The notes beneath the pieces were generated by a model. That model worked only from the letters and a program-made list of their open reading frames with translations, was not told where the DNA came from and ran no database searches. This document shows, in pieces, positions 17,153 through 59,871 of a stretch of 64,000 bases of DNA. Numbering within the stretch: the first letter of the stretch is position 1; each line of letters begins with the position of its first letter. Source of the stretch: Bacillota bacterium (GTDB taxonomy: Bacteria > Bacillota > Clostridia > Lachnospirales > CAG-274); NCBI GenBank assembly GCA_017460805.1, contig JAFUAF010000013.1, forward strand, positions 1 through 64,000, written 5' to 3'. The position numbers and the translations under genes were made by a program.

Positions 17153-17255
17153 TATAGTGAACGTCAAAAATATTTGGACGTTCACTATAGGATGGGGCTC
17201 ATAAATAATCAGCCTTAAGCAAGCTTAAGTCCGATTATTTAATTCGCTTACTATA
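17153..17255. repeat. structured inverted-repeat element, copy 1
   Basis: It starts one base after a stop codon. A left hairpin (perfect 12-bp stem ATAGTGAACGTC at 17154-17165 and 17177-17188) is followed by GGGGCTCATAAATAATC. A second hairpin comes next (AAATAATC...GATTATTT enclosing CTTAAGC-AA-GCTTAAG). The right end CGCTTACTATA mirrors the left end TATAGTGAACG, 9 of 11 bases. The same design recurs at 37.97 kb and its end sequence at 57.4 kb. This fits a MITE-like or REP-like mobile repeat. Confidence 0.75.
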
Positions 17256-37968: not shown

Positions 37969-38070
37969 TTATCGCGAACGTCAAAAATGTTTCGGCATTC
38001 ACGATAAGTTGAGGCTCATAAATAATTGTTATTAAGCAAGCTTAACTCAATTATTTAATTCGCTTTATAA
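37969..38070. repeat. structured inverted-repeat element, copy 2
   Basis: Same design as the 17.2-kb element: left hairpin TATCGCGAACGTC...GGCATTCACGATA (G-U pairs replace two base pairs), then GAGGCTCATAAATAATTG. The second hairpin follows (AAATAATTG...CAATTATTT enclosing TTAAGC-AA-GCTTAA), then TTAATTCGCTT. It starts right after rpmF. The stem bases differ from copy 1 but pairing is kept. Confidence 0.75.
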
Positions 38071-38096
38071 TAAGATATTTTGCAAAGTAACTTAAA

Positions 38097-41365: not shown

Positions 41366-41392
41366 ACATACATATTGAAATTTTGTTTAACA

Positions 41393-41647
41393 CGATGACG
41401 AGGAGTAGTAGCTTATCAAAACTTTTCAGAGAGCTGTCGTTTGGTGCGAGACAGCAGGTCGAAATAAGTGAACTCGCCTTTGAGTGGCTTGGCTGAAATG
41501 ACAGTAGGTCAAGACGGATGCCGACCGATACAGCGGCAGAATATCGGCTGCGGCCCGTATTCGTAGAGTGCATCGCGTTTGCGGTGAAGTAAAGTGGTAC
41601 CACGGAATCATGCCTTTCGTCTTTATGTAATAAGATGAAAGGCTTTT
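41393..41647 (+). ncRNA. T-box riboswitch with leucine (CTC) specifier
   Basis: T-box leaders read uncharged tRNA. Visible landmarks: GAGGAGTAGTAG at the stem I base, AGAGAGC and TTGGTG in stem I, specifier loop GAACTCGCC with the leucine codon CTC at 41473-41475, TTTGAGTGG, and the antiterminator bulge GTGGTACCACGGA at 41594-41606. The terminator stem (GCCTTTCGTCTT with AAGATGAAAGGC, 41612-41643) ends in TTTT. A leucine specifier upstream of leuA makes biological sense. Confidence 0.93.
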
Positions 41648-57361: not shown

Positions 57362-57504
57362 TATAGTAAACGACATTTAAAATGTCCTTTACTATAACCC
57401 TGCGGGGCATGCACACGACTGCGTACAAGGAATAAAGCCGCTTTGCGGCTCGCAGTCGGCGCAAGTAAACGCCCAAAGTCCAAAGACTTTTGTCGTTTAC
57501 TATA
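57362..57504. mobile_element. 143-bp MITE-like element with 14-bp terminal inverted repeats
   Basis: TATAGTAAACGACA (57362-57375) and its exact complement (57491-57504) bound the element. The left end is itself the arm of a near-perfect 35-base hairpin with TGTCCTTTACTATA (57383-57396). Inside lie CGACTGCG/CGCAGTCG and GCCGC/GCGGC hairpins. The ends share TATAGT-R-AACG with the 17.2-kb repeat. It carries no gene and lies 24 bases upstream of rlmCD (minus strand) and before spoIIA. Most of the 319-base gap is this element. Confidence 0.8.
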
Positions 57505-59660: not shown

Positions 59661-59682
59661 AAAGTAAATAAATATGTAAATT

Positions 59683-59844
59683 GATAGAGGCGCGTTATTC
59701 ATCAGTAACTGCGGAACAGGCGGCAAAGCGCTGTAAGCCGCGGTGAAAGGGGATAATGCCGAGGGTCGTGTTTCTTTGCAAAGGACGGCTCGGTCGCTGC
59801 GGTCAACAGCCCTGTGACTGTCATCTTACGGATGGAGTGCTATC
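59683..59844 (+). ncRNA. lysine riboswitch (L box)
   Basis: Conserved parts are visible: P1 GATAG/CTATC, AGAGGCGCG near the 5' end, CAGTAACTGCGG, GGTGAAAGGGGATAATGCCGAGG, GACGGCTCGGTC, GACTGTC and TTACGGATGGAGTGCTATC at the 3' end. It precedes asd and dapA, the branch towards lysine, so lysine would favour termination in the following hairpin. Confidence 0.93.
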
Positions 59845-59871
59845 ATTATTACGCTGTTTTTGTGTACTAAT

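Follow-up and report, generated by a model that had tools for sequence, protein, structure and literature searches.

The RUP elements of Streptococcus pneumoniae, for which mobilisation by IS630-Spn1 has been proposed, resemble the repeat described here in their length of about 100 bp, their terminal inverted repeats (TIRs), the TA at their ends, their target duplication, and their link to IS630 (PMC2229807). They differ from it in sequence, and in the present repeat each half is palindromic, resembling paired IS ends. The Correia/NEMIS elements of Neisseria are also alike (105-155 bp, with TIR, terminal TA, target duplication, and stem-loop transcripts), although their sequence is different and RNase III processing and IHF sites have been reported for them (PMC2229807). 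In the CIR elements of Caulobacter and Brucella, the 5' and 3' halves each form long stem-loops, as in the present case, but these elements are listed without TIRs (PMC2229807), whereas the repeat studied here carries them.

The window, which is the whole stretch of 64,000 nucleotides analysed, contains two copies of a repeat of about 103 bp (Table 1), which is very probably a non-autonomous MITE of the IS630 type. A search for further copies yielded 64 distinct full-length insertions across two genera, representing 45 distinct sequences, 42 of which were included in alignment A1. The source genome alone has 20 full-length or nearly full-length copies together with several partial ones. Among the 48 genomes of the family that were searched, the repeat was present in nine, namely all six of its own genus and three of one neighbouring genus, and absent from the other 39. 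The carriers are metagenome assemblies (Bacillota, Eubacteriaceae or Clostridia) and, where a source is stated, this is the rumen or abomasum of ruminants. The repeat has no coding capacity, is multi-copy and dispersed, and varies in presence between species, as is characteristic of MITEs. With a simple ORF-based gene call, all 64 copies were intergenic, and the neighbouring genes were found in all four arrangements (++, 17; -+, 13; --, 11; +-, 9). The coding-like flank directly before copy L012 (G000:C73:137988-138091; ..ELENELK) reads into the element, which may supply the C-terminal codons of a gene. Copies L002 (G000:C50:4807-4910) and L018 (G000:C45:3563-3666) have the same flank and an identical site and belong to different subfamilies (A and C types, respectively), which suggests conversion between copies inside a duplicated region.

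Table 1. Features of the window discussed in the text, by position in the 64,000-nucleotide stretch.
Feature	Position	Strand	Remarks
Repeat (MITE) copy 1, subfamily A	17153..17255	+	Span includes the TA at each end
Copy 1, hairpin 1	17153..17189	+	TATAGTGAACGTC / GACGTTCACTATA; 13 perfect pairs; 11-nt loop
Copy 1, hairpin 2	17202..17241	+	Columns 50-89 of alignment A1; dyad centre AA
GCAAGC in copy 1, hairpin 2	17219-17224		Same 6 bp as the identity at island junctions in other copies
Copy 1, right terminal and subterminal repeat	17225..17255	-	TATAGTAAGCGAATTAAATAATCGGACTTAA; resembles the IS630 end of G006:C435
Repeat (MITE) copy 2, old degenerate C-type	37970..38072	+	TA at 37970-37971 and 38071-38072
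Copy 2, hairpin 1	37970..38006	+	Three imperfect pairs: C-A, C-A, T-G
Copy 2, hairpin 2	38019..38057	+	
Copy of second MITE family, ~143 bp	57362..57504		TIR TATAGTAAACGAC, of the same kind; one end bears a TIR-TIR palindrome
T-box leader and lysine riboswitch	41386-41627 and 59677-59850		Rfam; sole Rfam matches in the window

The earlier note had described the two window copies as elements with common sequence blocks and a two-hairpin plan; both lie where it had placed them, the limits of copy 2 now being set by its target duplication, the blocks are exact matches, and each copy folds better than shuffled sequences (copy 1, z = -5.4 on the + strand and -7.1 on the - strand; copy 2, z = -2.8 and -5.1, respectively). 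The same note had read the imperfect pairs in stem 1 of copy 2 as G-U pairs that preserve the stem. On the + strand, these are in fact C6-A32, C10-A28 and T12-G26, the C-A pairs becoming G-U only on the - strand, and all three are uncompensated, so this stem should be called degenerate, not compensated. Truly compensated changes between copies 1 and 2 occur at pair 4/34 in stem 1 (A-T vs C-G) and at pair 58/81 in stem 2 (C-G vs T-A).

The repeat has terminal inverted repeats across copies (TATMGTGAACG ... CGCTTACTATA). When 392 genomes of the order were scanned with a 22-base pattern derived from the TIRs, one match in genome G006, of a neighbouring genus, was located 92 bases before a frameshifted and truncated transposase gene (G006:C435), the halves of which matched PF13565, PF13592 and PF13358 above their cut-offs; each half also matched NF033545, though below the cut-off. 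The end of this single broken IS630 copy, found by means of the TIR pattern, is TATAGTAAACGACATAAATAATTGTGCTTG, and its agreement is 24/30 for the right end of the repeat, 22/30 for the left end and 21-23/30 for the second MITE family. Identity over the first 22 bases arises partly by selection, and a shuffle test of the end likeness overstates it; what does not depend on the pattern is that this end lies next to an IS630 gene and that the sequences also agree past base 22. In addition, the 5' arm of hairpin 2 has CATAAATAATTGT, an exact match to the same IS. No IS630 transposase (PF13358) exceeded the cut-off in the MITE-bearing genomes, and no intact IS630 with these ends was found; these genomes are drafts, and their assemblies could lack a multi-copy IS. 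A short-pattern TIR scan of the IS630 loci of the wider family gave no convincing pair of ends, G006:C435 being the only locus later tied to the ends described here, while viral contigs with an IS630 N-terminal protein included no relative and plasmids showed distant IS630 only.

The anatomy of the repeat, read against these ends, suggests how it arose. Hairpin 1 would derive from two terminal repeats placed head-to-head, and such TIR-TIR palindromes of 36-37 bp are also found alone in G000 (L121), G006 and G339, where related elements occur too; hairpin 2 would consist of a subterminal copy of the IS end opposite the full right-hand terminal repeat. We infer that a DDE transposase of the IS630 family, provided in trans, would bind the terminal repeat TATMGTRARCG...; cleavage would take place at the outer TA, and the element would enter TA targets, which are thereby duplicated. 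The second MITE family is represented in the genome by about 12 copies or fragments at contig ends, counting the one in the window; five contigs begin inside it, indicating that it breaks the assembly. Its relatives were found in G003 and G006, with a similar plan in G339, which belongs to another taxonomic family.

The repeat has been mobile in recent times, and duplication of a TA target was evident from an empty orthologous site and from nested insertions. Copy 2, which in the window follows the rpmF stop codon and precedes a likely terminator, with a TA at each end, is missing at the rpmF locus of three sister species. The empty site reads GATCTTTT-TA-AGATATT in two of the sisters, against the occupied form GATCTGAT-TA..TA-AGATATT, and its sequence is GATCTTTTTAAGATATTTTGC in two sister species and GATCATTTTAAGATATTTTGC in one. 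Copy L120 is nested at a TA in a member of the second MITE family, again with TA on both sides, and other copies of that family display the empty form GGACATTTT-TA-AATGTC; L024 is nested likewise inside another repeat. At the loci homologous to copy 1, the three sister species have no room for the element and no MITE match; this locus is too divergent for an empty site to be defined at the base level, and the gap lengths and lack of a match fit such a site. The two-hairpin plan and extragenic position would also suit an IS200/IS605- or REP/RAYT-type element that a Y1 transposase moves in the form of single-stranded hairpins. However, such elements lack target duplication and their ends are not mutual inverted repeats, whereas the present repeat has the TA duplication and is bounded on both sides by true terminal inverted repeats, of a kind shared with the second MITE family and resembling an IS630 end, making this reading extremely unlikely. 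The suggestion in the earlier note that the repeat could be transposon-end DNA was right, as shown by its terminal inverted repeats, TA duplication, empty sites and IS630-like ends.

In the alignment, 92.4% of the cells of the two-helix structure pair, and two-sided changes were observed at 17/32 pairs (52 cells); the corresponding values for shuffles were 6.2 pairs and 13.8 cells. When the copies were placed on a tree, 11 co-changes of pairs fell on single branches, 10 of them passing from one Watson-Crick pair to another. When partners were permuted within helices, the mean number of co-changes was 3.3 and the maximum 10, and none of 5000 permutations reached the observed value. The covariation beyond phylogeny that the earlier note had asked to be tested is therefore real. 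Uncompensated stem changes, which that note would have counted against its reading, do occur in the further copies, as resident copies decay, yet the paired changes exceed what phylogeny explains. One-sided changes from Watson-Crick pairs produced A-C in 24 cases and G-U in 20, and 62/86 of the one-sided changes lie on terminal branches; accordingly, no strand is favoured, and resident copies gather uncompensated changes.

Covariation of this kind could be taken as the mark of a structured cis-acting RNA, such as a 3' UTR stabiliser, a terminator or a regulatory hairpin, kept by selection on RNA pairing. Both window copies have a stop codon before them and a likely terminator after them and are therefore probably transcribed, and they have stable folds in addition to the covariation. 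However, the near parity of G-U and A-C intermediates means that neither strand behaves as an RNA strand, uncompensated changes pile up in resident copies, presence at orthologous sites varies among sister species, and the Rfam scan of the window gave no match at the element. Orientation is unbiased, and 13 copies lie between divergent genes: the position just after a stop codon, noticed earlier, holds for both window copies (0 and 6 bases) and fails for the family as a whole. Neither a strand-specific wobble signature nor a fixed position relative to genes was found among the copies, which leaves selection on the structure as RNA unsupported and this explanation very unlikely. The strand symmetry, the decay of resident copies and the occurrence of all four gene arrangements favour causes at the DNA level instead.

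As for those causes, we infer that the covariation is better explained by paired transposase sites, by template-switch homogenisation of palindrome arms, or by both. In the first case, one protein would recognise both arms, now or in the past, and this would keep the palindromes paired in lineages that transpose; in the second, a polymerase switching templates would copy one arm of a palindrome onto the other. Copies that have landed would then decay freely. Template switching has been reported to give rise to paired changes in hairpins and to maintain them (PMC8794818), and also to homogenise the arms of inverted repeats (PMC8604942). A version in which the MITE is real and its covariation is purely mutational, owing to template switching between arms without selection on pairing, refines the MITE explanation and is not exclusive of it; we consider it a serious possibility, although short of probable. 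Besides being a documented process, it agrees with the direct passage of nearly all co-changes between Watson-Crick pairs and with L076, whose sole difference from its nearest relative is one two-sided pair exchange. However, old resident copies retain many uncorrected mismatches, so template switching, if active, must be slow per copy, and the co-changes at the branches founding subfamilies (pairs 4/34 and 67/72) fit selection for transposition equally well.

In several partial copies of the MITE, the sequence breaks off precisely at the centre of the hairpin 2 dyad. Left junctions (n=2; G000:C38 and G001:C5) consist of TTAAGCAAGC followed by ...TGACACCTTATAT, and right junctions (n=3; G000:C9, G000:C18 and G001:C30) of ATATAAAGTGTCATTGCGG followed by GCAAGCTTAAG. 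These five island junctions, from two species, use the same dyad, with GCAAGC shared by both sides, and the deduced island arms are dyad-symmetric at 17/24 positions. In G001, the right junction follows, at a distance of about 80 bases, an intact gene for a 520-aa recombinase (L155:1322-2884) with Resolvase and Recombinase domains, and the left part of this island, on another contig, encodes a replication-initiation-like protein and a MobA/VirD2-type relaxase. Recombinases that are 78-81% identical adjoin other targets (GGGYGTWCC...), so MITE use seems to characterise a single branch. Repeated use of hairpin 2 as an island target is suggested by two older junctions (L032 and L036). Islands that encode a relaxase and a large serine recombinase were observed at the centre of hairpin 2 in L154, L155, L156, L031 and L034; their cargo includes AAA/STAND-like NTPases and a phosphorylase-domain protein, which may represent defence or regulatory genes. 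Judging from these junction sequences, a family of relaxase-bearing integrative islands has probably adopted the second palindrome of the MITE as a putative attB, and transposition of the MITE would thereby scatter landing sites for a large serine recombinase. In the literature searched, nothing relevant was found on MITEs or repeats that serve serine recombinases as attB.

The IS630-type MITE family is new and ordinary in kind, and its covariation is unusually clear, with an explanation at the level of DNA. Strong covariation in a short repeat thus need not signal RNA, given that paired transposon ends can yield it. The most interesting part is the apparent role of the MITE as a dispersed attB, a concrete case of a MITE giving dispersed putative attachment sites to serine-recombinase islands, in which the attB core is easily testable. 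A parallel is offered by IS1397 and ISKpn1, which insert into REP palindromes: in both situations, a mobile element targets the centre of a repeated palindrome. However, IS1397 and ISKpn1 are insertion sequences of the IS3 family, whereas the guest in the present MITE is an island of the integrative type that encodes a large serine recombinase.
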